Positions 10,177 to 29,141 of a stretch of 34,508 nucleotides of DNA are shown one piece after another. Source of the DNA: Spirochaetota bacterium (GTDB taxonomy: Bacteria > Spirochaetota > Spirochaetia > ARS1246). Each line of letters begins with the position of its first letter. Position 1 is the first letter of the stretch. Both the position numbers and the translations under genes were made by a program. The stretch spans positions 1 to 34,508 of the forward strand of contig JAJRYZ010000124.1 of the NCBI GenBank assembly GCA_024275515.1. The letters are read 5' to 3'. The notes below the pieces were generated by a model, which was not told where the DNA came from, searched no databases, and worked only from the letters and a program-made list of their open reading frames with translations.

Positions 10177-10199
10177 AAGGCCGGCACTGAGCCGGCCTT
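10177..10199 (-). terminator. Hairpin between tRNA-Glu and carA (probable terminator)
   Basis: Reverse strand AAGGCCGGC-TCAGT-GCCGGCCTT followed by TCTTG; perfect 9-bp stem directly 3' of tRNA-Glu. Confidence 0.55.
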
Positions 10200-10491: not shown

Positions 10492-11037
10492 CTACCGAAC
10501 GACGCTCTCGCTTTCATATTCGATCAACGTCCGTACGTCGGCGCCTTTCAACGCCTCGCGATACCCGAGAAACGGAAGCCCGATAACCGCGAACACGGCG
10601 CGGACCGACCCACCCGCCTCGTCGATAAGATCGACCGCGGCTCTCGCGGTGCCGCCCGTGGCGAGCAGGTCGTCGACGAGGAGAACGTTCCACCCACGTC
10701 GTACGTCGCCGGCGTGGATTTCGATCGTGTCGCGTCCGTATTCCAACTCGAAAGACCTGCCGACGGTCGGACCGGGAAGTTTCCCCGCCTTGCGAATCGG
10801 TAGCAGCGGCAGTCGATTCTCGGCGGCAAAAGGCGCGGCGAAAAGAAAACCGCGCGCCTCGATCGCGACAACCGCGTCGATGGCCTCACCGTCGTAGAGC
10901 TGGTGCATTTTGTCGATGCAAAAGCGAAACACGTCTGGGCGCGACAAGACCGAGGTGATGTCGTAAAACAGGATGCCCGGCTTCGGAAAATCGGGCACCC
11001 GGCGAATCGCGTCGTCGAGAAAAGTCCTATCATCCAT
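10492..11037 (-). CDS. apt: Adenine phosphoribosyltransferase
   Basis: 181 aa; RRVPDFPKPGILFYDITSVL, IEARGFLFAAPFA, VLLVDDLLATGGTA (PRPP-binding motif). Confidence 0.96.
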   Translation of the reverse strand: MDDRTFLDDAIRRVPDFPKPGILFYDITSVLSRPDVFRFCIDKMHQLYDGEAIDAVVAIEARGFLFAAPFAAENRLPLLPIRKAGKLPGPTVGRSFELEYGRDTIEIHAGDVRRGWNVLLVDDLLATGGTARAAVDLIDEAGGSVRAVFAVIGLPFLGYREALKGADVRTLIEYESESVVR

Positions 11038-11049
11038 CGGTAATGCTCC

Positions 11050-12060
11050 TTACGGATAACGTCGCCTGAACTCCGGAACGCGCGAGAACGCGTTTTCGTC
11101 AAGTTGCGAAACGCGACTGTGGCGTACGTAGTGGTACCCGAGTCCGGCGATCATCGCGCCGTTGTCGGTGCACAAGCGAAGCGACGGGATGAACGCCTCG
11201 TACTTTTTCCGGACGAGTTCGCGGCGCAGGTAGGTGTTGGCCGCCACTCCGCCTCCGACCACCACCCGCCTCATTCCGGTATCCGCAACGGCGCGATCGA
11301 TTCGCCGAAGGATGATGTCGATTGCGACACGCTCGAACGACGCGGCGATGTTTTCTCGCGTGGGTTCGTATCCGTCGCGGAGGAATCGGTCGAGTTGATT
11401 GACGACCGCGGTCTTCAATCCTGAATACGAGACGTCGTACCGGTGATCGCCTTTGTGAAGCGACGGGTCGGGGAAAGAGAAGGCGTCCGCCTCTCCGTTC
11501 CGTGCCAAATCATCGATCGCTTTTCCACCGGGAAAACCGAAATCGTAATGTTTCGCCACCTTGTCGAAGGCCTCTCCGCAGGCGTCGTCGATCGTCGTCC
11601 CGACGACTTCCATACGAAAAACATCCTCGACGACTCCGATCAACGTGTGCCCGCCCGAAATGATGACGCCGAGATGCGGATAGGGAACGGCCCCCTCGAG
11701 CTGCGGCGCATAGAGGTGCGCTTCGACATGATTGACCGCAACGAAAGGAACGCCCAGCCCGTACGAAAGCGCCTTCGCGTATGAAAGTCCGACGAGAAGC
11801 GAGCCGACGAGTCCCGGTCTATTGGTGACGGCCACCGCATCGACATCGCCGAAAGTCATTTCCGCCCCGGAAACCGCGCGCTCGACGACAGGAACGATTC
11901 GCTCGGTATGCGTCCGCGAGGCGAGCTCGGGCACGACCCCGTAGTAGGGTCTATGCACATCCACCTGGGTGGCAACGACGTGGCTGCGGACTTCCCGCCC
12001 GTCGACGACCACGGCGGCGGAGCATTCGTCGCACGAGCTTTCTATACCTAATACTCTCAC
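11050..12060 (-). CDS. tsaD: tRNA N6-adenosine threonylcarbamoyltransferase TsaD
   Basis: 336 aa; VLGIESSCDECSAAVV, NHVEAHLYAP, ISGGHTLIG, TIDDACGEAFDKVAK, GGGVAANTYLR, CTDNGAMIA motifs. Confidence 0.96.
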   Translation of the reverse strand: MRVLGIESSCDECSAAVVVDGREVRSHVVATQVDVHRPYYGVVPELASRTHTERIVPVVERAVSGAEMTFGDVDAVAVTNRPGLVGSLLVGLSYAKALSYGLGVPFVAVNHVEAHLYAPQLEGAVPYPHLGVIISGGHTLIGVVEDVFRMEVVGTTIDDACGEAFDKVAKHYDFGFPGGKAIDDLARNGEADAFSFPDPSLHKGDHRYDVSYSGLKTAVVNQLDRFLRDGYEPTRENIAASFERVAIDIILRRIDRAVADTGMRRVVVGGGVAANTYLRRELVRKKYEAFIPSLRLCTDNGAMIAGLGYHYVRHSRVSQLDENAFSRVPEFRRRYP

Positions 12061-12962
12061 CTGTCGCTCCGATAGTACTTCTGAAGCGCAGGATACTCGC
12101 TCAGCGGCCTGAAAGAAAAGCCCTGCTCGATTGAGCGGGAGTACTCGCGGCGAAGAACCTCGACCAACGTGTCGCTATGAACATGCCCGATCAACACCGC
12201 CGAACTTTCCCGTCTCGCCCGGTCCAGCCCTTCCGCAAACGCCGATCTTACGACATCGTATTCGGCTTCGTTGTCCAGAAACGGTCCGGTACGTTCGGCA
12301 AACGCCACCTCGTAGACCTCCGCGACCATGCCCGCGACCGACGAATTCGTGGTAACGCTGTCGAGAAAGAACATTCCGCGATTTGAAAGGTAATCCATCA
12401 CGTAGCTCATCGTCTCCGCGTCGGCGGTCACTTTTGAACCCATGTGATTGTTGATTCCGCGAATGCTTTCCAGTCCCGCCAGATTTTCATCAAGGATCGC
12501 ATCGACCTCTTCTCGGCTCATCCCGGCGTACAGCGCACCGACTCCCGGATCGGAGGATCCGACCGGCTCCATCGGCTGATGCAGTATCACCACCTGCCCC
12601 GCGGCGCGGATCCGTTCGACCGCCTCTCTGGTGTAGCGACGACGCGGCATCACGGCGAAAGTGAGAGCAAAGGGAAAATCGAGAAACCGTTCCAACTGTT
12701 CCATGCTGTTGCCCACGTCGTCGATGACGAGATAGAGATCGCCGCCGCGCGGTTCTTCGGGAGCCTCCGGTCGTGGTTCAGGCTTCGGAGCAGCACCGTC
12801 GACTTCGGCCGGCGCGACCGCCGTTGGTGTCGCCGGCCGCCGCGGCGCCTGAAAGAGTAGAAGCACCAGCACGAGACATGTGGCAACGACGGCGAGTAGC
12901 ACGATCGCCGTTCGCACCTTTCGCCGCTGACGCCCGAGGGAGGTTGTTCTTTTGTATGCCAC
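12057..12962 (-). CDS. Divergent polysaccharide deacetylase family protein (YibQ-like), N-terminal membrane anchor
   Basis: 301 aa; YLVIDDVGNSMEQLERFLDFPFALTFAVMP, ILHQPMEP, GINNHMGSKVTAD, FFLDSVTTNSSVA; hydrophobic N-terminus. Confidence 0.88.
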   Translation of the reverse strand: MAYKRTTSLGRQRRKVRTAIVLLAVVATCLVLVLLLFQAPRRPATPTAVAPAEVDGAAPKPEPRPEAPEEPRGGDLYLVIDDVGNSMEQLERFLDFPFALTFAVMPRRRYTREAVERIRAAGQVVILHQPMEPVGSSDPGVGALYAGMSREEVDAILDENLAGLESIRGINNHMGSKVTADAETMSYVMDYLSNRGMFFLDSVTTNSSVAGMVAEVYEVAFAERTGPFLDNEAEYDVVRSAFAEGLDRARRESSAVLIGHVHSDTLVEVLRREYSRSIEQGFSFRPLSEYPALQKYYRSDR

Positions 12963-12993: not shown

Positions 12994-13836
12994 TCAGTTG
13001 TATACGTAGTCCCTTAATTCATCGGCATGGCGTCGCAGTTTTTTTATGGCGCGCATCTCGATCTGCCGCACCGTTTCGGGAGAAATACCAAGCTTCTCAC
13101 CGACCGACTTCAGCGTGTACTTTTTGCCTCCGTAGAACGCAAAGCGGTACATCAGGATTTGCCGCTCCTTGTCGAGCAGTTGCTCCAGAAACCGCATCGT
13201 CTCCTCACGCATGCTCTTCTGCATCAGGTCCCGATCCGGGTCGAAAGAATCATCTTCGCACAGATCGATCAACCTGCCCGACTGCGTCGTCAGCTCGCTG
13301 TCGAGCGAACTTACCGCCGCCGATGCGTTGAGTATCGCGGACACGTCTTCGGGGTTCATGTTCAGCTCGTCGGCGACTTCCTCTATCGAGGGCTTGCGAA
13401 CAAGCTTCTGATTGAGCAGGTAGAAGGTTTTTTGTATCTTTTTGAGAGCTTCTTCCTTCCTGTGAGGCAATCGAATAGGTCGCCGCTTGTTCGACAGCGC
13501 TCGTACGATTGACTGTTTGATCCACCACGCCGCGTACGTCGAGAACCTGACTTTCTTGCGGTAATCGTACTTCGAAGCCGCTTTGATGAGCCCCAGATTC
13601 CCTTCCTGGATCAGGTCGAGAAACTGCACATCCGGTGTCAGATATCCCTTGGCGATCTTTACCACCAGACGAAGATTCGACTCTATCAGTCGCTGCTTCG
13701 CCGCCTCGTCGCCGCCCTGTATCCGTCTCGAGAGCTCAAGCTCCTCTTCAAAGGAAAGCAGCGGCGTGCTCTTGATCTGATGGAAATACGACTGAAGGGC
13801 GTCGGTTCGCTCACTGTTATCGGTTTTTCCACCCAT
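12994..13836 (-). CDS. RNA polymerase sigma factor, sigma-70 family (group 2/RpoS-like)
   Basis: 280 aa; LIESNLRLVVKIAKGYL, FLDLIQEGNLGLIKAASKYDYRKKVRFSTYAAWWIKQSIVRAL (region 2), region 3, region 4 TLKSVGEKLGISPETVRQIEMRAIKKLR. Confidence 0.93.
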   Translation of the reverse strand: MGGKTDNSERTDALQSYFHQIKSTPLLSFEEELELSRRIQGGDEAAKQRLIESNLRLVVKIAKGYLTPDVQFLDLIQEGNLGLIKAASKYDYRKKVRFSTYAAWWIKQSIVRALSNKRRPIRLPHRKEEALKKIQKTFYLLNQKLVRKPSIEEVADELNMNPEDVSAILNASAAVSSLDSELTTQSGRLIDLCEDDSFDPDRDLMQKSMREETMRFLEQLLDKERQILMYRFAFYGGKKYTLKSVGEKLGISPETVRQIEMRAIKKLRRHADELRDYVYN

Positions 13837-13857
13837 GACTGTCTCCCACGAATAATA

Positions 13858-13874
13858 AGCAATTACCGTGCCAG
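13858..13874 (-). promoter_or_regulatory. Sigma-54 (RpoN) -24/-12 promoter of the sigma factor gene
   Basis: Reverse strand CTGGCACGGTAATTGCT, exact match to YTGGCACGrNNNTTGCW; 21 nt further to the ATG, with SD GGGAGA in between. Confidence 0.82.
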
Positions 13875-14087
13875 GACGCCGAAGAGATAATCATGAAGCG
13901 ATAACTCCCGATGGAATAGTAAATTATCGTCGGCGGGGGAAGTCGCTAGTACAACAAAAAAAAGCGAATGTATGGTTTTCTATAACTCTAGCGATCGGGA
14001 TGTGTATCTTTTTTTGTACAATAGATCCGGTTATCATATGCTCGTCCCGACGACGCGTCCGGGAAACCCGCGCCGCAGGCGTCTCTG

Positions 14088-14402
14088 TTACAGATACCGA
14101 CTCATCTGGTCGTAGAGCATGCGAGCGATGCCGAAATCGGCGGTTCGCGCCATTCGGGACGAATACTCGTCGTACAGCATGTCTTCGTAGATCTTTTCCG
14201 CAAAACCGCCGTCGATCAGCCCTCCCTTGGGCACGGTGCGCCGCATGCTGTCCAGCATCTGCTTGAGAAAAAGCGCTTCGAAGTCGCGTGCCGCTTCCAG
14301 CAAACGGCTCTTCTCCCGAGCTCGTGCCGTCCGCGATGCCTCGTCCATCATCCTGCGCGTCCGCACGTCCGTCGCTTGAAACAAAAGACCGTCTGTATTC
14401 AT
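14088..14402 (-). CDS. flgJ: Rod-binding protein, FlgJ N-terminal domain only
   Basis: 104 aa; EAARDFEALFLKQMLDSMRRTVPKGGLIDGGFAEKIYEDMLYDEYSSRMA; no muramidase domain. Confidence 0.87.
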   Translation of the reverse strand: MNTDGLLFQATDVRTRRMMDEASRTARAREKSRLLEAARDFEALFLKQMLDSMRRTVPKGGLIDGGFAEKIYEDMLYDEYSSRMARTADFGIARMLYDQMSRYL

Positions 14403-14411
14403 CGCGCCGTC

Positions 14412-15446
14412 CTACTCGACAACCAGCGTGCCGTACAATGCTCCCGCCTTGTCGATCAGTTTCAGTATCTCTATCACCGTGTCGGTGTCGACCCCGAGAT
14501 CCTGCAGGAGAAGAACGAAGTCCGAAACACCGGCGCTTCGCTCTATCACGAAAGAGGTTTCCTTCCGCTCCCCGTACACACGCGCCGGCCGTACCTTCAA
14601 ATCGTTATTGCGGTAAGAAATCCCGACCGGTCCAATCCGAACGTTGCCCCCGAGGACCACAACCCCGGCGCGCTGATTGACGACCACCCGAGCCGGAACG
14701 TCCGGCCGGACGGACAATTGTTCGACGGCCGAAATGAGCGAAACCAACTCGCCGTCGTACTCTTCGCTCGGACGCACTTCTATCACGGCCGCATTTATCG
14801 CCCGAACCTCTGCGTCCGAAAAGGCCGACTTCACCGCCTCGGAAACCGCAAAGGCGGTGGAGAAGTCGGGCCGATTGAGAACGAGGACAAGAGTCCGGTC
14901 CCGGAAAAGATCCGAGCTTACCGCGCGCTCGATGATCGCACCTCGCGGTATCGTACCGACGGTCCGGCCCGATCCCTCCGTCGCGTCGGTCGCGATCACT
15001 CCCTGAGCCACCGCGTAGGTATTGCCGTTGGCGGCGCGCAGATTGGTCTGCAGAAGAATCCCCCCGAGCAGATCGGTCGCGTCACCCAGACTGGCGACAT
15101 GCACCGACACGTGATCGCCGGGCGCGGAGAACGCCGGGATTGTTGCGGTGACGGTTACGACGGCCGCGTTTTTCGCGCGTATCTCCTCGGGATCAAACGA
15201 CAGGCCGAAAGCGTCGAGCAGATTCGCCACGCTCCGTTTTGTGATGGCGGAGTTCGTCGAATCTCCCTTTCCCGCCAGGCCCGTAACCAAGCCCACTCCG
15301 ACGAGCTGGTTCTCCCGGACGCCCCGGACCACCGCGATGTCTTTGATGCGAGCGAGACCACCGTCCTGCGCCGTCACCGACGCCGCGAGCACGAAAAGCG
15401 CGACCGCCGGCGCGGCGATTCTCCCCGGTCTAATCGAGAAGGACAT
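14412..15446 (-). CDS. flgI: Flagellar P-ring protein FlgI
   Basis: 344 aa; RIKDIAVVRGVRENQLVGVGLVTGLAGKGDS, GDATDLLGGILLQTNLRAANGNTYAVAQG, VVNQRAGVVVLGGNVRIGPVGIS. Confidence 0.95.
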   Translation of the reverse strand: MSFSIRPGRIAAPAVALFVLAASVTAQDGGLARIKDIAVVRGVRENQLVGVGLVTGLAGKGDSTNSAITKRSVANLLDAFGLSFDPEEIRAKNAAVVTVTATIPAFSAPGDHVSVHVASLGDATDLLGGILLQTNLRAANGNTYAVAQGVIATDATEGSGRTVGTIPRGAIIERAVSSDLFRDRTLVLVLNRPDFSTAFAVSEAVKSAFSDAEVRAINAAVIEVRPSEEYDGELVSLISAVEQLSVRPDVPARVVVNQRAGVVVLGGNVRIGPVGISYRNNDLKVRPARVYGERKETSFVIERSAGVSDFVLLLQDLGVDTDTVIEILKLIDKAGALYGTLVVE

Positions 15447-16338
15447 CCACTCTCCCCCGGTCGGCGACTCTTCCGACGATTCTTGCCCCCGACAGATCTA
15501 TTCGCACGGGAATCGCGTCGCCCATCGCGCCGCCCGACAACGCCGTTCCGTCGAGCTCGACCTCGACCGTGCCTCGCCGCACGGTCACCCGGATCGGTTT
15601 ACCGCGCTCGACGATCTCCACCCGACCGACGTCGTCCCGCCGAATTATCGCGCCGGCCGGGACCGGACGTGAAGGATAGTGGAAAGCCACCCGCACTTCA
15701 TACCACGCGGCTTCCGACAGGACGGGGACTCGCTCGAGATCGTCCCGATCGAACGCCGCCCCCGCATCCAGCTTCCTCACCGCTCGGTACCCCCAATAGT
15801 AGCGTCGCACGGTCGCTTCGAAACGTCGGTATGCAGCAGTACTGTTAGTGCGGAACAATACCGACAGCCTGCGTCCGTCCGGATCGACCGGCCTTATCCG
15901 AACCTCATTCCATCGTTGCGAAACCAGTCGTCCGCCGTTGGGGACTCCCAAGAGGTCGACGCGAATCGCGCCGTGACCGACCAAGCCTTCCAGCTCCTCG
16001 GTCAGGTCGAGGTAGTTCTCCAGAGTGACTCGTGACGGCGGTTCGCCCGGGCAAAAGAGATACCAGAGGGGCTTCTCGCTGTTTTCGGCAAACCGCCCGC
16101 CGACACCCTCACGCACGTAGTCGCGACGCATGATCGAAAGAAAGACGTCCGAGCCCTCCGGATCGACGAACCGACGTGCGCCGGCGGAAGGAAGGCTCAA
16201 GGACTCCGGTGAACCGGACGCAGAGGCCCGATAGTAGAGCTTTTCGGCGTCAAACGCGGCCCGATCGCTCCACGCACCCGCGAGAAACGTCACAAGGAGC
16301 AGAAACATCGACTGAACGCGGAGCGTATTCCGCCGCAT
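15430..16338 (-). CDS. flgA: Flagellar P-ring assembly chaperone FlgA (SAF domain)
   Basis: 302 aa; C-terminal GAAFDRDDLERV...RPVPAGAIIRRDDVGRVEIVERGKPIRVTVRRGTVEVELDGTALSGGAMGDAIPVR; directly upstream of flgI. Confidence 0.85.
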   Translation of the reverse strand: MRRNTLRVQSMFLLLVTFLAGAWSDRAAFDAEKLYYRASASGSPESLSLPSAGARRFVDPEGSDVFLSIMRRDYVREGVGGRFAENSEKPLWYLFCPGEPPSRVTLENYLDLTEELEGLVGHGAIRVDLLGVPNGGRLVSQRWNEVRIRPVDPDGRRLSVLFRTNSTAAYRRFEATVRRYYWGYRAVRKLDAGAAFDRDDLERVPVLSEAAWYEVRVAFHYPSRPVPAGAIIRRDDVGRVEIVERGKPIRVTVRRGTVEVELDGTALSGGAMGDAIPVRIDLSGARIVGRVADRGRVDVLLD

Positions 16339-16342
16339 CGGA

Positions 16343-17137
16343 CTACCGTTTCAGATTGTTGGCGATACCCAGCATACTGTCGGAGGTCTGTATCGCTTTC
16401 GAATTGAGCTCATAGGCTCTTTGCGCGACGATCATATTGACCATCTCGTCCACAACGGAGACGTTCGATTGCTCCAGGAACTTATGCACCAGTTTCCCCA
16501 TCCCGTCGAACGCGGGTCTGCCGGCTATCGCGTCTCCGGAGCCGTTGGTCACCTTGAACAGGTTCTCGCCGATCGCTTGCAGTCCGGCCGGATTGACAAA
16601 CCGGTAGAGCTCCATCCGGCCGACTTCCACCGCCTCGTCGCTTCCCGCGACTTTCACCATGACTCTGCCGTCCTGAGTGATTGTGAGACTCTCTTGAACG
16701 AAATCGTCGGGAAGCACGATTTCAGGCATAACACGATAGCCGTTTGAAGTGACGAATTGCCCGCTTGAATCGACTTTGAAGGATCCGTCGCGCGTATACC
16801 CGTAGGCGCCGTCAATCAACATAACTCGAAAGAAACCTTCTCCCTGGATCGCGAGATCGGAGACGACGCCTGTTTGTTTCAGGGCGCCCTGCGTGAACAT
16901 CTTTTGCGTAGACGCGACGCGCACACCATGCCCGACTTGGATTCCCGTCGGAGCAACGGTCAGCTCGGTAGCGGGAGTACCGGCTATTCGTCTGTTCTGG
17001 TACAACAGATCCTCGAACTCGGCCCTGTTTTTCTTAAACCCGGTGGTGTTTACATTCGACAGGTTGTGTGAAATCGTGTCGATATTGAACTGCTGTCCCG
17101 TCATGCCGGACGCCGCCGTCCACAGTGATCGCATCAT
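16343..17137 (-). CDS. flgG: Flagellar distal rod protein FlgG
   Basis: 264 aa; MMRSLWTAASGMTGQQFNIDTISHNLSNVNTTGFKKNRAEFEDLLYQ ... YELNSKAIQTSDSMLGIANNLKR. Confidence 0.95.
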   Translation of the reverse strand: MMRSLWTAASGMTGQQFNIDTISHNLSNVNTTGFKKNRAEFEDLLYQNRRIAGTPATELTVAPTGIQVGHGVRVASTQKMFTQGALKQTGVVSDLAIQGEGFFRVMLIDGAYGYTRDGSFKVDSSGQFVTSNGYRVMPEIVLPDDFVQESLTITQDGRVMVKVAGSDEAVEVGRMELYRFVNPAGLQAIGENLFKVTNGSGDAIAGRPAFDGMGKLVHKFLEQSNVSVVDEMVNMIVAQRAYELNSKAIQTSDSMLGIANNLKR

Positions 17138-17149
17138 CTCTATGACTCC

Positions 17150-17998
17150 CTAGACTCTGATCGCCCGGTTGATAAGCGTCCCGGCAAGCGAGTCCTGTGT
17201 TTGTATGACTTTTTGATTCGCCTCGTAGGCGCGGTTCACTTCGATCATGTTGACCATCTCACGAACCGGATTGACGTTCGATCCCTCCAGAAAACCCTGG
17301 TAAACCTTCGGGCGTTCGCGCTCGGCGAGCTCGACTGCCGGCCCCGATTCGAATGGCGTCATCCACATCGAATCGCCCTGTTTTTTGAGATACCTCGTCC
17401 GGTCGAAACCGACGATCCGGAGCGTATCGACCAGCTCGAGGTTCTCCCATTCATTCTCTTCCTGCGAAACGAGTCGTTCGGGGTCCGCCGCCAAGGCTGC
17501 GTTCCGCCACACCCGCCCCTGCGAGTCGATGACGAAGTTGTTCTCCTTGATGCGAATGAACCCGTTTTGTCCGAGCACCGGATTGCCTTCCTTCGTCAGG
17601 AGCAGACCTTCGGAACCAAGAACGAAGCTTCCGTTTCTCGTGTATCGTTCGCCGTTGTCCGTGTAAATCGAAAAAAAGCCGTCGCCGTCAAGAGCAAGGT
17701 CGAAAAAGTTCCCGGTCTCCTTCAGGGCGCCCTGGTCGAAAACGGTGTACGACTCATTCAGCTCGACGCCCGTTCCCAGCTTCCCGACGACCGGCCCGAC
17801 CTCGATCGATCCAAAGGGAAAAAGGTATACCCCGTCGTCCGACAGCCGTCGAATAAGCAACTCCGGAAACGCCTTCCGGATAGTCGTGTCGCGTTTGTAC
17901 CCGGTAAGGTCGACGTTCGCGAGATTGTTTGCGAGCGCGTCCATTCGGTGCATCTGCGCAATCATTCCGCTTGCGCCGGTGTAGATTCCCCGAAGCAT
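17150..17998 (-). CDS. flgF: Flagellar rod protein FlgF
   Basis: 282 aa; MLRGIYTGASGMIAQMHRMDALANNLANVDLTGYKRD ... GSNVNPVREMVNMIEVNRAYEANQKVIQTQDSL. Confidence 0.88.
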   Translation of the reverse strand: MLRGIYTGASGMIAQMHRMDALANNLANVDLTGYKRDTTIRKAFPELLIRRLSDDGVYLFPFGSIEVGPVVGKLGTGVELNESYTVFDQGALKETGNFFDLALDGDGFFSIYTDNGERYTRNGSFVLGSEGLLLTKEGNPVLGQNGFIRIKENNFVIDSQGRVWRNAALAADPERLVSQEENEWENLELVDTLRIVGFDRTRYLKKQGDSMWMTPFESGPAVELAERERPKVYQGFLEGSNVNPVREMVNMIEVNRAYEANQKVIQTQDSLAGTLINRAIRV

Positions 17999-18334: not shown

Positions 18335-18985
18335 TTATTCACCTTTCTGCGAGTTCCGCCGCGACTGCACGAAGCGGGCGAAGTCGTTGATGTTTTGCAC
18401 GATGATCTTGTCCGGATAGAGTTCGATCCGGCGCTGCGAGGCGAAATGGTTGAGTATTCCCCGGCACGTGTCGGGGGACATTCCCGCCCAGTGGGCGATG
18501 TCGTCGATCGACGACCTGAACTCGCGTACGTTCGACTCGTCGGACCCGGCGGGATTTGTTTCATCGAGCATCAGGAAAACGTCGGCAACTCGCGCCTGGA
18601 TGTCCTCAAGAGTCAGTATCATAAACCGTAGCTTCTGGTCGTATATCCGTTTGGTGAGCAGTTTGAGCAACTTCAAGGCGATCTGCGGGTTGCCCATCAT
18701 TAACACTTCGAAATTCTCGCGGTTGAACTCGAGCGCTTTGACGGCGTCAAGAGCGATGGCCGAAGCGCTTCTCGGCGCCTCCTCGAGAATGGCCATCTCT
18801 CCGAATATCTCGCCGGGGTTCAGAATGTCGATGATCTTCTCGATGTCGTCCATGATCTTAACGATCTGGACGCGACCGGTTTGGATCAGATAGAAAGTGT
18901 CGCCCGGCTCGTATTCACAAAAAACGATATCTCCTGGGTCAAACGTAACCGCAAACCGCTCGAACAGGGACATATCCAACGCCAT
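18335..18985 (-). CDS. Crp/Fnr-like cyclic-nucleotide-binding protein
   Basis: 216 aa; FCEYEPGDTFYLIQTGRVQIVK ... ILNPGEIFGEMAILEEAPRSASAIA (cNMP-binding fold); C-terminal HTH-like SIDDIAHWAGMSPDTCRGILNHFASQRRIEL. Confidence 0.88.
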   Translation of the reverse strand: MALDMSLFERFAVTFDPGDIVFCEYEPGDTFYLIQTGRVQIVKIMDDIEKIIDILNPGEIFGEMAILEEAPRSASAIALDAVKALEFNRENFEVLMMGNPQIALKLLKLLTKRIYDQKLRFMILTLEDIQARVADVFLMLDETNPAGSDESNVREFRSSIDDIAHWAGMSPDTCRGILNHFASQRRIELYPDKIIVQNINDFARFVQSRRNSQKGE

Positions 18986-18995
18986 GCAACTCCGC

Positions 18996-19985
18996 CTATA
19001 GCTTCCGCAACGCTTTCTTCGCTTTCCGGTGCGCAGACGCCTCTTGAGACGTCATGCTCAGAATCTTCGTATAGAAACTCTTCGCCTTCGCCGTATTGCC
19101 GTTTTATTCGTAGCACCTACCGACGTAGAACAACGCATCGGGTAAGTCCGGGTGTTTGGGAAATTTCTGAATCATCGCGGTGAAATGTCTCACACACCCG
19201 TCGTAGTCTTCCAGAGAAAAGAGGCAGCGACCGATCTCGAAAACTGATTTGACCGCGTATTCTTGATCCCCCCCGGAATTAACGATACGCTTGAACTCCG
19301 CGAGAGCTTCCTCGTATTTCTGTTGGCTGAAAAGACTTACGGCGTTGTAGTATTCCTTCGCCGCGTCGGACATCGATGCGCCGCTTTGGCTTGGAGACGC
19401 GCTCGTAGTCCCGCTCGACGCCGCGGCGGGCCGCGACCCTCCGCCGCCCTGAACGTATTTTTCGCACAGCTGTATCGAATCGTTCGCATCTGCGGCGAAT
19501 TTGCCCGAGGGATAGTAGGTAAGATACCTGCGAAAGGCGTACAGCGCCTGGCGATACTTTTTGGTGTTGAGGTAGTATTGCCCGATATTGTAGAGGCCTT
19601 CCTCGGGGCTGACCTGCTCTCCCGTGGCGAGTAGATTCCGAACTTGCTTGTGAATCCTTCTCAGTTGCGTAGAAAAAACCTTGAGCATTTTCACGATAAT
19701 GCGTGTGTTCTTCATCGCGATCTGCTCGAACTCGGGCACGGTGAAAGTGATCATCGAAGAGTCCTGCACGACAACGGCCGTCTCTTCGCGCGGGTATTTT
19801 CCGAGCGCCGATTTCACACCAAAAAACTCGCCGGTCTTGATAACGTCTTGCATCTCCTGGCCGGTCTCGATGTCGTTGTACTTCAAAACCACGCGTCCGC
19901 TCTTGAGTATGTATACGCGCTCGTTGAGATCTCCGCGGAAATAAACGATCGAGTTGGCCTTGTACTGAGCGGCTTTTGGCGACAT
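18996..19985 (-). pseudogene. Cyclic-nucleotide-binding domain + TPR protein, interrupted by in-frame TAA at 19104-19106
   Basis: Track ORF 19104..19985 ends ...DALFYVGRCYE*, but the same frame continues NGNTAKAKSFYTKILSMTSQEASAHRKAKKALRKL* to TAG at 18996-18998, completing a TPR. Only 10 nt then separate it from the next gene. Confidence 0.75.
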
Positions 19986-25965: not shown

Positions 25966-27546
25966 CTACACGTCCCAAATCTCTTCGAACGCGTGAGGTC
26001 TGTCGCAGTATTTGCATACGAAAGTGGAGCTTCCCCGCCGCAGAAATTCCGGTCTGACATGCTGGTGATGCGACGGGTGAGAAACACACGCGTCGTTTTT
26101 GCATGAAATCTCGTCAAAACTGTAGACGCGCGGAGGCATCAAAAGTCGATATTTGTGAACGATACGAGCGTTCTTGATGATATTGAGCGTGCAGCCCGGC
26201 GCAATCGCGCCGAGCATCTTTATCTGCCGTTGATCGAAGGAAAGCACGTCGGGCAGCGAAATAATTCCCTTGTAGACGTTCGGACCTCCCGAATGATAGA
26301 CGCCGTGCGAGCTTCGGCAGTTCAGCCCCATGATCCGACGCACCTTGACGATCTGGTCCCATATCCGTTCGATTTTTCGCCCCTTCCCGATATGATCGAT
26401 GACGATTCCGTTGTCGACGGGTTTGATGCCGACTTTGTATTCCGGCTTGTGAGCCGTGCGCGTCGGCGCCTCCTCGACAAAATCGTCGGGAAACTCCGCC
26501 GCCCTACGAGGTTCGCCGCGGAAATCCTCCCCGAGCGTCCCGGCCACCAACGCGAGCTCGACAATCCGCGTGTAGTATCCGTTGATCGACTGTCCGTCCC
26601 AGCCGTTCATGGGAGTCTCATCGAGAAACGACGGAATCGTCGGATGCTCCCGGTGTCTCGGAAGCGGATGATAAAAGCGTACCCCCCGCGGCACTCCGGC
26701 TCGGAACTCAGGCCTGAAAGTAACCGTTCGTCGGAGATAATCCGCCTTTTCAAGCACGGCTTCTCCCATCCGCTCGAGCTGAAGTCGCGTAAAATACCAG
26801 ATCGGAGCGACATCGCGACCGTCGAGATAAGCCTCGATCGACGGAAAAGTCCTTACCGCGAACCCGTGCTCGGCCATTTTTTGCCTGTAAAAGTCGGGCA
26901 TCGCAAGCTCGGCCGGCGCGATGAGGTCTACGCGGACGTCACCGAATATTCGCAAACCCTCGGCCTTCGTATGCACCGTCCGCCCGTGATGCAAATCGCC
27001 GACCAGGGCGAGATGAATCGAATCGCGTTTCCAACCGAGCCGCTCGAGAAAAGTAAACTGATCGAGATACTCCTGCGTGGGATGCTCATGCTTGCCGTCG
27101 CCGGCGTTGATGAAAGCCGGAGGCTTTCGCCCCAGCGAAGCCGCGTAGGCTCCGAGGGCCGTTTCGAGCCAACGGCAAACGCCTTCGAGCTTCGATCGCA
27201 CGACGAAAACGGAACAATCACCATAGCCGAAAAGCATCTTCACCGTGTCGGTAATGCTCTCCTTCTTGGTGGTTATCGAAGAACTCTGCGCGTGAAAATC
27301 GTTGAGTTTGACACGATGAAATTTCGCCGCGTTTCGGAAGGACTCCTTCGTTCGCGTCGAGTCTTCAAGAAAAACCAGGTAGATCCCCAGCTCCTCACGA
27401 TCGATCCGAAACGCGTCCAGACCGTCGCCGGTGCGAATCGCCTCTTTTAGCCGTCGCGTTTTTTCATAGAGATAGATTTGCTCGTCGGTACTCAGATCTC
27501 CTACGACCGAAATCGTCCTGTTTCGAAAACAACTCTCCGCACACAT
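25966..27546 (-). CDS. pyrB: Aspartate carbamoyltransferase catalytic-regulatory fusion (PyrB-PyrI)
   Basis: N-terminal ATCase catalytic domain (FLEDSTRTKESFRNAAKFH, INAGDGKHEHPTQEYLDQFT); C-terminal PyrI-like domain with Zn-ligand Cys (CKNDAC...CKYC). Start MCAESCF at 27546, 5 nt after the preceding gene's stop. Confidence 0.92.
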   Translation of the reverse strand: MCAESCFRNRTISVVGDLSTDEQIYLYEKTRRLKEAIRTGDGLDAFRIDREELGIYLVFLEDSTRTKESFRNAAKFHRVKLNDFHAQSSSITTKKESITDTVKMLFGYGDCSVFVVRSKLEGVCRWLETALGAYAASLGRKPPAFINAGDGKHEHPTQEYLDQFTFLERLGWKRDSIHLALVGDLHHGRTVHTKAEGLRIFGDVRVDLIAPAELAMPDFYRQKMAEHGFAVRTFPSIEAYLDGRDVAPIWYFTRLQLERMGEAVLEKADYLRRTVTFRPEFRAGVPRGVRFYHPLPRHREHPTIPSFLDETPMNGWDGQSINGYYTRIVELALVAGTLGEDFRGEPRRAAEFPDDFVEEAPTRTAHKPEYKVGIKPVDNGIVIDHIGKGRKIERIWDQIVKVRRIMGLNCRSSHGVYHSGGPNVYKGIISLPDVLSFDQRQIKMLGAIAPGCTLNIIKNARIVHKYRLLMPPRVYSFDEISCKNDACVSHPSHHQHVRPEFLRRGSSTFVCKYCDRPHAFEEIWDV

Positions 27547-27551
27547 CACGA

Positions 27552-29141
27552 CTACTCGGACTTTCGTGTCAGCGCCAATGTCGCCGTCGACAAGGCGATT
27601 ATTCCGCCCTCCGGACTCTGCGTGTACACGACACCGTCTGCAACGCGAAAAACCGCGTAGGGAAGGACCGGTACGGTAGATCGCGTGGTCATGTCGAGGT
27701 TGCCGTCGAAACGGCCGATCCACCACGCGCCTGCGTCCAAGACGACCGCAAGCACGGTGGCGCCGTCCGGCTCCACTTCGATCCAGCTCTCGCCGAACAC
27801 CGGTTGTGTTCCAACGGTACCCGTTTCAAGTTTCTCGACGTCGACCAAAACCAGATGCGCCTCCTCGTCCGGCTCGCCGGCCACGGCGAGAAGCGATTCA
27901 CCGAACGAATAGACGCGACGACCGCGTATCGTGTCGACCGACGACTCGGCGACTATCACGCTCGTAGCCGGATCAAGATAGACGAGTCGTGCCAAAACCA
28001 CGCCCGATTCCACCCGCGTCGACAGCAGCAAGATCGTCCTTGACGCCGCGGACGCGGCGCCCACGCCGGAGACGAGCCCGCTCGGAACTTCCTGTTCCTT
28101 CAGCTTGCGCTCGTCGGCGGCAATCGCCTCGCGCTCCTGCTGAATACGCTCGATGCGCGCGGCTTGCTCCGCCTCCTGCAAAGCCAGTTTCTGCTCCTCG
28201 CGGCGCAGTTCGGCTTCCTGATCGCTCAGCTCCCGATCACGGACGTCGAGTTGCGCTTCACGCGGTTGGCTCGTTTCCCCCGTGTCGCTTTGCGCGGCGC
28301 CCTCCGCCGCCTTTTCCCCGTCCTCCGCAAGCGCGGACCGCTCGGCTTCAACCGCCTCCCGCTCGCGGCGTACGCGCTCCATATCCGCATCTACCCGGGC
28401 GCGTTGTTCCTCTATCCGTTTGAGCTCCTGATCTACTTCTCGTTCCTTAAGTTCGGTGATTTCTTTGCGAACCGGGATGCCGCGGTCTTCCCTGGCGCGC
28501 AACTCCTCGATCACCTCTTTCTCGGTGAGAACATCGCTGTCAAGCGATCCTAAGCCTCCCACGTCGGCTCGTTCGGAGAGAGGTATGACCAGCTGGGTTT
28601 TGCCGGGCCACTCGGAGTATACCGTGTCTATGCCGACGGCGCCCGCGTCGAGATGAGATACCACCGCGGGTTTGTAGCGCTCCTCAAAATACGACAGTCG
28701 ACCACGATATACGGCGTTGTACACGGTAATGAACTCGGAGAGAAGCAACGCGTCGGCCAGAGTGTACGAATACGCCCGTTCCAGGTAGCCTCCGAGAATA
28801 CGGCGCAGGTTCACGACGTGATCGACCTCGGCGGCGGACGTCAGCTCCAGGATGTCCGCGTCAAGCGCTCCGGTCGCGGCGGGATCCACCGCGTGAATAA
28901 TACGATATTTGCCTGCGTAAGTCGCCGTGCCGGAGGCGTTCCCGGCGAGAGAAGCGAGCGCCCTCCCGATGCCGAGAATCTGTTCGATCGTGTCGATCCG
29001 GTCGTGCGGGCCCTCGTAGTTGACAAACTCGACGGAGGTGCCGCCGACGCTCTTGAGCTCCTCTTCGGCGACGTCCAACGTCCACGCCTGCGCCGCAGCC
29101 AGGACCAATGCGACGATTCCCATCTTCCTGCCGGTCTGCAC
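27552..29141 (-). CDS. P83/100-family spirochaete antigen-like protein
   Basis: 529 aa; signal-like N-terminus, conserved N-terminal domain, central Glu/Arg-rich coiled coil (EREVDQELKRIEEQRARVDADMERVRREREAVEAERS), C-terminal beta-rich domain; matches my knowledge of Borrelia p83/100 proteins. Confidence 0.8.
   Translation of the reverse strand: MQTGRKMGIVALVLAAAQAWTLDVAEEELKSVGGTSVEFVNYEGPHDRIDTIEQILGIGRALASLAGNASGTATYAGKYRIIHAVDPAATGALDADILELTSAAEVDHVVNLRRILGGYLERAYSYTLADALLLSEFITVYNAVYRGRLSYFEERYKPAVVSHLDAGAVGIDTVYSEWPGKTQLVIPLSERADVGGLGSLDSDVLTEKEVIEELRAREDRGIPVRKEITELKEREVDQELKRIEEQRARVDADMERVRREREAVEAERSALAEDGEKAAEGAAQSDTGETSQPREAQLDVRDRELSDQEAELRREEQKLALQEAEQAARIERIQQEREAIAADERKLKEQEVPSGLVSGVGAASAASRTILLLSTRVESGVVLARLVYLDPATSVIVAESSVDTIRGRRVYSFGESLLAVAGEPDEEAHLVLVDVEKLETGTVGTQPVFGESWIEVEPDGATVLAVVLDAGAWWIGRFDGNLDMTTRSTVPVLPYAVFRVADGVVYTQSPEGGIIALSTATLALTRKSE

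Follow-up and report, generated by a model that had tools for sequence, protein, structure and literature searches.

Does the spirochaete represented by this window (the whole 34,508-nucleotide stretch of DNA that we analysed) place a sigma factor gene under the control of sigma54 (RpoN) as Borrelia burgdorferi does with rpoS, and if so, is it the same gene? In B. burgdorferi, the rpoS transcript starts 14 bp after the GC of its promoter element, and the product is absent in an rpoN mutant (PMC1976401). An earlier note, made from the letters of the window alone, had proposed an exact sigma54 promoter, correctly spaced, in front of a gene for a sigma factor with regions 2–4. It suggested a cascade comparable to that of Borrelia with possible reach into the genes downstream, and named rpoN, bEBP-type activators, conservation of the -24/-12 element and the phylogeny of the sigma factor among the points to check. 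Here we follow up these points by comparison with related genomes. They confirm the promoter element, and they support the proposed cascade and take it further. We arrive at a reading, to which we give a probability of roughly 0.8, in which the window holds the spirochaetal rpoS locus, RpoN drives its sigma gene (paralogue S1), an Rrp2-type activator acts at upstream palindromes, transcription reads through into the following genes, and the whole arrangement is ancestral.

Table 1. Features of the sigma locus and of variant promoters and RpoN proteins in related genomes; positions are those of the window unless locus identifiers are given.
Feature	Position	Strand	Evidence or remark
flgF-like basal-body rod gene	17150..17998	-	named by position and comparison with relatives
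flgG	16343..17137	-	named by position and comparison with relatives
flgA	15430..16338	-	
flgI (P-ring)	14412..15446	-	
flgJ (rod-binding), upstream neighbour of sigma gene	14088..14402	-	PF10135, E 3.6e-16
Candidate enhancer site 1, TGTACAAAAAAAGATACA	14003..14020	-	9/10 of TGTAT-N8-ATACA
Candidate enhancer site 2, GTTATAGAAAACCATACA	13969..13986	-	8/10; position conserved in relatives, ~110 bp before -24
Sigma54 -24/-12 promoter element, CTGGCACGGTAATTGCT	13858..13874	-	sole match with at most one mismatch in the window; in 107/109 S1 orthologues
Shine-Dalgarno GGGAGA	13842..13847	-	sequence; coincides with predicted +1 (~13847); 11-nt leader
RpoS-like (group 2) sigma factor, paralogue S1, 280 aa	12994..13836	-	Pfam regions 1.2, 2, 3, 4; trees; PHRKE
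Divergent polysaccharide deacetylase (PF04748)	12057..12962	-	31 bp after sigma gene; probably co-transcribed
tsaD	11050..12060	-	4-bp overlap with deacetylase gene
apt, adenine phosphoribosyltransferase	10492..11037	-	12 bp after tsaD
Terminator-like hairpin, probable end of sigma-deacetylase-tsaD-apt unit	10177..10199	-	9-bp stem, 7 GC pairs
TTAG-type sigma promoters	L152, L153, L157, L158, L173, L367, L369, L370, L375, L376		
RpoN of TTAG lineages	L326, L328-L330, L353, L357		

A conserved -24/-12 element precedes the sigma gene

On the reverse strand, CTGGCACGGTAATTGCT agrees with the consensus YTGGCACGRNNNTTGCW at all specified bases, as the earlier note had claimed, and has the form of a sigma54-dependent promoter, TGGCAYR-N4-TTGCW with invariant GG and GC at fixed spacing. 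It alone in the whole window matches with no more than one mismatch, where 0.05 matches are expected from shuffles; at up to three mismatches there are 12 matches against 11.8 expected, and the remaining 11 are at chance level. The element lies 21 nt upstream of the sigma gene. Its GC doublet occupies 13860-13859, and with C(-12) at 13859 the established sigma54 geometry predicts a transcription start near 13847. Because this is the first G of GGGAGA, the Shine-Dalgarno sequence would lie at the 5' end of an 11-nt leader ahead of the ATG at 13836, and the spacing originally proposed holds throughout. Similarly short leaders of ~11–12 nt are conserved among S1 orthologues (median 12 nt), in which the Shine-Dalgarno sequence mostly opens at the predicted start (at +1 to +3 in 58 of the 98 with a recognisable one). 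No sigma70-type site was found between flgJ and the sigma gene.

A single -24/-12 match taken alone is weak evidence. The host genome (G000), a MAG of 4.2 Mb in 329 contigs and 94.8% complete, contains 21 near-consensus matches (at most one mismatch) against 44 for the reversed control pattern, and because this is no enrichment we rejected the genome-wide count as proof of a sigma54 site. The exact matches number five, all of them 10–49 bp before an ATG ORF. Four of the genes behind them were identified: the sigma gene of the window, the gene for Hsp20, one for a GGDEF-EAL response regulator, and glnA, a known sigma54 target with its site 49 bp upstream. A second sigma gene (S2) has a near-exact site, as does a gltB-like gene, named by eye from its N-terminus.

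We scored the element in S1 orthologues with weights of our own choice, taken from general knowledge of the sigma54 consensus. At a score of at least 0.84 it is present in 107 of 109 orthologues, which are related sequences and not independent events, compared to 1.7% of dinucleotide-Markov shuffles, and it occupies the same place in the five Borrelia-like genomes scored. The GG and GC are 99–100% invariant while the N4 spacer bases vary, which argues for selection on the element itself and not for general conservation. This conservation, together with the placement of all five exact matches before ORFs, puts the window's site beyond chance. An upstream scan of eight RpoD genes found the element in none; weak matches upstream of a few RpoD genes (0.84–0.94) lie inside longer RpoD coding sequence, correspond to the background rate and were set aside. 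It was present in 2 of 12 genes in a set of E. coli RpoS, Omnitrophota and Verrucomicrobia sequences, and in one of 59 non-spirochaete relatives (Omnitrophota, Verrucomicrobia), indicating that it is not general to group 2 sigma factors.

RpoN, its activators and a candidate enhancer

The host genome encodes one RpoN (E 9e-60) and ten full-length bEBP domains plus one truncated. One of these activators belongs to an Rrp2 clade with 100% support that has exactly one member in each of the 8 genomes sampled. The Rrp2 of Borrelia-like genomes has one counterpart in each genome examined, at 51–57% identity, and in the Borrelia-like genomes and in G006 the Rrp2-clade member is the sole bEBP. The orthologue in the host genome (L004/L239:9981-11390) has a receiver, an AAA+ domain with GAFTGA and a Fis-type HTH, the recognition-helix core of which, RKTLHxK, recurs in 8 of 9 clade members. 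Its partner histidine kinase adjoins it (L239:11336-11890, C-terminus only on the contig), so that both the activator and the kinase of an Rrp2-RpoN-RpoS cascade are represented. Two rpoN sequences in other genomes are unusual. In the Borrelia-like G019 (L331/L332, G019:C1:472400-472828), several stop codons interrupt the gene in the assembly, which could reflect a fault of the assembly or genuine decay; the rpoS element and Rrp2 of this genome look intact. The RpoN of G027 has an in-frame TAG within its DNA-binding domain match.

Many S1 orthologues also have an 18-bp palindrome, TGTAT-N8-ATACA, ~110 bp upstream of the -24 element. A scan of the window for repeats of at least 7 nt found no inverted repeat, and a generic inverted-repeat score gave a weak signal; k-mer enrichment then exposed the motif. 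In its extended form, TGTATRA-N4-TYATACA, it occurs at 12/14 or better upstream of 52 of the 109 S1 promoters against 1.0 expected, figures that are exploratory since the promoters used to refine the consensus were also those scored with it. Stronger points are its positional clustering, with 48 of the palindromes in the 75 upstream regions scoring at least 11/14 starting in one 20-bp bin 100–120 bp before -24, and its absence from S2, none of whose promoters reaches 12/14. Seven of eight other sigma54 promoters scored in the host genome, including those of glnA and the gltB-like gene, were at background, and one (L022) scored 11/14. We regard the palindrome as a candidate enhancer of S1 promoters; the two candidate sites in the window, both of them imperfect, are 34 bp apart. 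Two Borrelia-like rpoS promoters scored at background, in agreement with the enhancer independence of the B. burgdorferi rpoS promoter reported in the title of Blevins 2009 (cited in PMC11109971 and PMC2940757).

S2, a paralogous RpoS-like gene (G000:C91, L239:2186-3058, minus strand), has an element of its own, TTGGCATGCTATTTGCA, 21 bp before its ATG, and we thus rejected the idea that S1 is the sole sigma target of RpoN, which would instead feed two downstream sigma factors. In the host genome the Rrp2 orthologue adjoins S2, not S1: it and the kinase C-terminus lie ~7 kb from S2 on the same contig, and in G008 kinase, Rrp2, a helicase and S2 stand in one stretch. Overall, 18 of 37 S2 genes have a sigma54 element, and a 14-member subclade is without any.

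This neighbourhood raises the possibility that the window's promoter is sigma54-dependent but is opened by another bEBP, either an NtrC-like protein encoded near rpoN on contig C328 or a flagellar FleQ/FlrC-type protein, in response to a nitrogen or flagellar-assembly signal and not through Rrp2/HK2. The genome has about ten other bEBPs, one of them on the rpoN contig, the sigma gene comes after flagellar rod and P-ring genes, and the Rrp2 orthologue neighbours the very paralogue that lacks the palindrome. We consider this possible, though doubtful. Among the clades sampled, the Rrp2 clade alone has one member in each genome, even where a genome has a single bEBP. In Borrelia, no bEBP other than Rrp2 is present, and it activates rpoS (PMC11109971). 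The palindrome was not found at the other sigma54 promoters scored, those of glnA and the gltB-like gene among them, L022 alone reaching 11/14. Based on orthology, the Rrp2 orthologue on C91 is most likely the activator of the window's sigma promoter.

The window probably holds the spirochaetal rpoS locus

The S1 protein has the regions 1.2, 2, 3 and 4 of a group 2 sigma-70-family factor and is without RpoD's long N-terminal part, in line with the original identification. Its best NCBIfam model is TIGR02394 (RpoS) at 251.3 bits, below the equivalog cut-off of 378.7 bits, and its closest relatives are all Spirochaetota MAGs, with identities of 77% and down, from which we take the window to come from a spirochaete. 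In gamma-proteobacterial RpoS (sigma38), K173 in region 3.0 reads -13C. The aligned residue in S1 is the E of LPHRKEE, which is part of a motif, P-[HY]-R-K-E, that characterizes S1 (R in 107/111, K in 110/111; PHRKE in the window). The same site reads PYRKEN in Borrelia-like proteins. S2 has PLNR there, RpoD has PVHMIE, and E. coli RpoS has PIHIVK, which includes K173; the motif is absent from these three.

In trees of 169 proteins (FastTree) and 84 proteins (IQ-TREE), the spirochaete sigma factors form a group (97%) that excludes E. coli RpoS as well as the proteins from Omnitrophota and Verrucomicrobia. They split into S1 (SH-aLRT 98%), with the window's protein and the Borrelia-like RpoS inside, and S2 (99%). 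The phylogeny that the earlier note had pointed to is thus favourable as regards S1 and equivocal as regards Borrelia, whose RpoS sits on a long branch: AU tests do not reject trees that join it to S2 (p 0.41), nor those that join it to E. coli RpoS (p 0.30). Because of this we dropped placement by tree alone and relied on gene order and the region 3.0 signature. A small Treponema-like genome (G076, 1.1 Mb; L356 and L372) keeps rpoN and has only RpoD at the search threshold, with no S1 or S2, which suggests a loss of the cascade.

The order in the window is flgF-flgG-flgA-flgI-flgJ-sigma-deacetylase-tsaD-apt, and flgF-flgG-(flgA-flgI)-sigma-deacetylase-tsaD-apt recurs in Spirochaetota relatives. 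In the Borrelia-like G019 and G041, which we infer to be Borreliaceae from their sole bEBP and gene order, the locus reads rrp2-hk2-...-tsaD-deacetylase-rpoS-flgJ-flgI, and the deacetylase counterpart (L240:13390-14301) is of the same family (PF04748). The B. burgdorferi map likewise has flgI-flgJ-rpoS (PMC1976401), and the neighbourhood of Borrelia rpoS (bb0771), flgI-flgJ-rpoS-(deacetylase)-tsaD, is found in the window. The shared gene order suggests that this is probably the same locus and not merely a "comparable" cascade, a closer relationship than had been claimed. Together with the region 3.0 signature, it indicates that the window's sigma gene is probably the same gene as bb0771, here in a spirochaete classified apart from Borrelia.

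Convergence, in which an independently acquired group 2 sigma factor came under RpoN and is analogous, not homologous, to Borrelia RpoS, would fit the long branch of Borrelia RpoS, the alternative placements that the AU tests keep, and a published phylogeny in which RpoS-Bb grouped with diverse proteobacterial homologues (PMC6719511). However, it would leave unexplained the flgF-flgG-flgA-flgI-flgJ-sigma-deacetylase-tsaD order that the window has in common with Borrelia-like genomes, the shared region 3.0 motif, the 98% support for S1 with Borrelia inside and the element in the same place, and we think it improbable.

Elsewhere in the window, two adjacent genes beside the flagellar cluster (18335-19985, minus strand) encode cyclic-nucleotide-binding-domain proteins, one CRP-like and one with TPR repeats, and a single ORF (25966-27726, minus strand) combines a match to aspartate carbamoyltransferase (OTCace_N) with matches to the two PyrI domains and so looks like a fusion of PyrB and PyrI.

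Variant -24 elements accompany variant RpoN boxes

The RpoN box contacts the -24 region (PMC7057263). It reads ARRTV or SRRTV in genomes with TTGGCA elements, and AVRTV or ALRTV in genomes with TTAGCA elements (the f24/g25 genomes and G038). Thus, in two lineages, the -24 of the sigma promoters reads TTAG instead of TTGG and the second-position Arg of the box is replaced by Val or Leu. The pattern TTAGCAYNNNNTTTGCW has 15 matches in four TTAG-type genomes and 0 for the reversed control. Strict covariation was rejected, as the S2 copy of G155 keeps GG despite a Val box; in G012, with a Leu box, a GG-type match lies 128 bp upstream of S2 and may not be the S2 promoter. These exceptions point to relaxed or shifted specificity and not to a strict swap. 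That the window's match is due to chance or is vestigial, and that the gene depends on a sigma70 promoter or on long read-through from flgI-flgJ, is very unlikely: such read-through is possible and the pattern is not enriched genome-wide, but the conservation around a free spacer, the eight RpoD genes without the element, its coupling to an RpoN-box residue and the lack of a sigma70-type site between flgJ and the sigma gene all speak against it.

The sigma transcript probably extends into deacetylase, tsaD and apt

The intergenic gaps after the sigma gene are 31, -4 and 12 bp. The sole terminator-like site earlier on the same strand (10594) is inside apt, and none is intergenic before the strong hairpin at 10199; as a class, such sites are not above the shuffle mean. 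The proposed reach of RpoN into these genes is thus plausible, and a transcript from the sigma promoter would probably run on through all three. Passages of a 2025 sigma54 survey (PMC12316311) report that COG0533 (the TsaD family) is enriched among sigma54-regulated genes in Spirochaetia and that COG0568 sigma factors are generally associated with sigma54 regulation; a sigma cascade in spirochaetes is not described in these passages. Read-through of a sigma-deacetylase-tsaD operon would explain the COG0533 enrichment reported there.

Discussion

In the mechanism we propose, sigma54 RNA polymerase would bind the -24/-12 element at 13874-13858, and a phosphorylated NtrC-type activator would open the promoter, giving a short-leader mRNA from near 13847. 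The activator would most likely be the Rrp2 orthologue encoded beside its histidine kinase on C91, and it would bind the two palindromes (14020-14003 and 13986-13969). The product would be a group 2 sigma factor directing its own regulon, with the transcript continuing into deacetylase, tsaD and apt, while RpoN would also feed S2 through that gene's own promoter.

This system resembles Rrp2-RpoN-RpoS of B. burgdorferi in gene order (as seen in G019 and G041) and in having rpoN, a -24/-12 element in front of an RpoS-like target, and an activator of the Rrp2 family paired with a histidine kinase. The window organism differs from Borrelia in its further bEBPs, about ten in number, in a second sigma paralogue with a sigma54 promoter, and in the candidate enhancer palindromes. 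Whereas Borrelia rrp2 is at the end of a putative rpoS operon (PMC1976401), its counterpart here is on another contig beside S2. With gamma-proteobacterial RpoS, S1 shares the group 2 architecture of regions 1.2–4 and the best model, TIGR02394. However, it falls below the 378.7-bit cut-off, is without K173 and lies outside the E. coli RpoS clade (97%), and the upstream region of E. coli rpoS has no such sigma54 element. The EbpA-RpoN pathway of Leptospira is likewise a spirochaete sigma54 system with a bEBP, but the targets reported for it, amtB and lipoprotein genes, do not include a sigma gene, and L. interrogans is described as being without RpoS (PMC12655853).

The switch is at the same chromosomal place in the window spirochaete and in nearly all relatives examined, suggesting that the cascade probably predates parasitism; as an arrangement it appears to go back to the ancestor of the class, and probably to that of the phylum. 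We lean towards a broader view in which the cascade is an ancestral spirochaete design and was not built in Borrelia for tick-mammal life. Both S1 and S2 would have been under sigma54, S1 via TGTAT-N8-ATACA read by an Rrp2-type activator, Borrelia would retain a stripped version without enhancer or S2, and two lineages would have shifted RpoN -24 recognition together with their promoters. The sigma54 promoter of S2, the upstream palindrome and the TTAG/RpoN-box variants are new beyond the earlier note. In the openly accessible literature we found no RpoN-to-RpoS cascade described outside Borrelia, and priority is not certain.

Borrelia is said to have "appropriated" RpoN to transcribe rpoS. 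Our results offer an alternative to this view: the sigma family would be specific to spirochaetes and its sigma54 promoter old and widely conserved, and what the family originally did is open to study in non-Borrelia spirochaetes. It has been doubted whether BB0771 is a true RpoS (PMC6719511, citing Chiang and Schellhorn 2010 and Hengge 2011), and the region 3.0 signature and gene order bear on this doubt. The candidate enhancer sequence, the second sigma54-driven sigma factor and the natural RpoN-box variants are testable parts of this proposal, and the variants, paired with altered -24 elements, bear on how sigma54 promoters are read.
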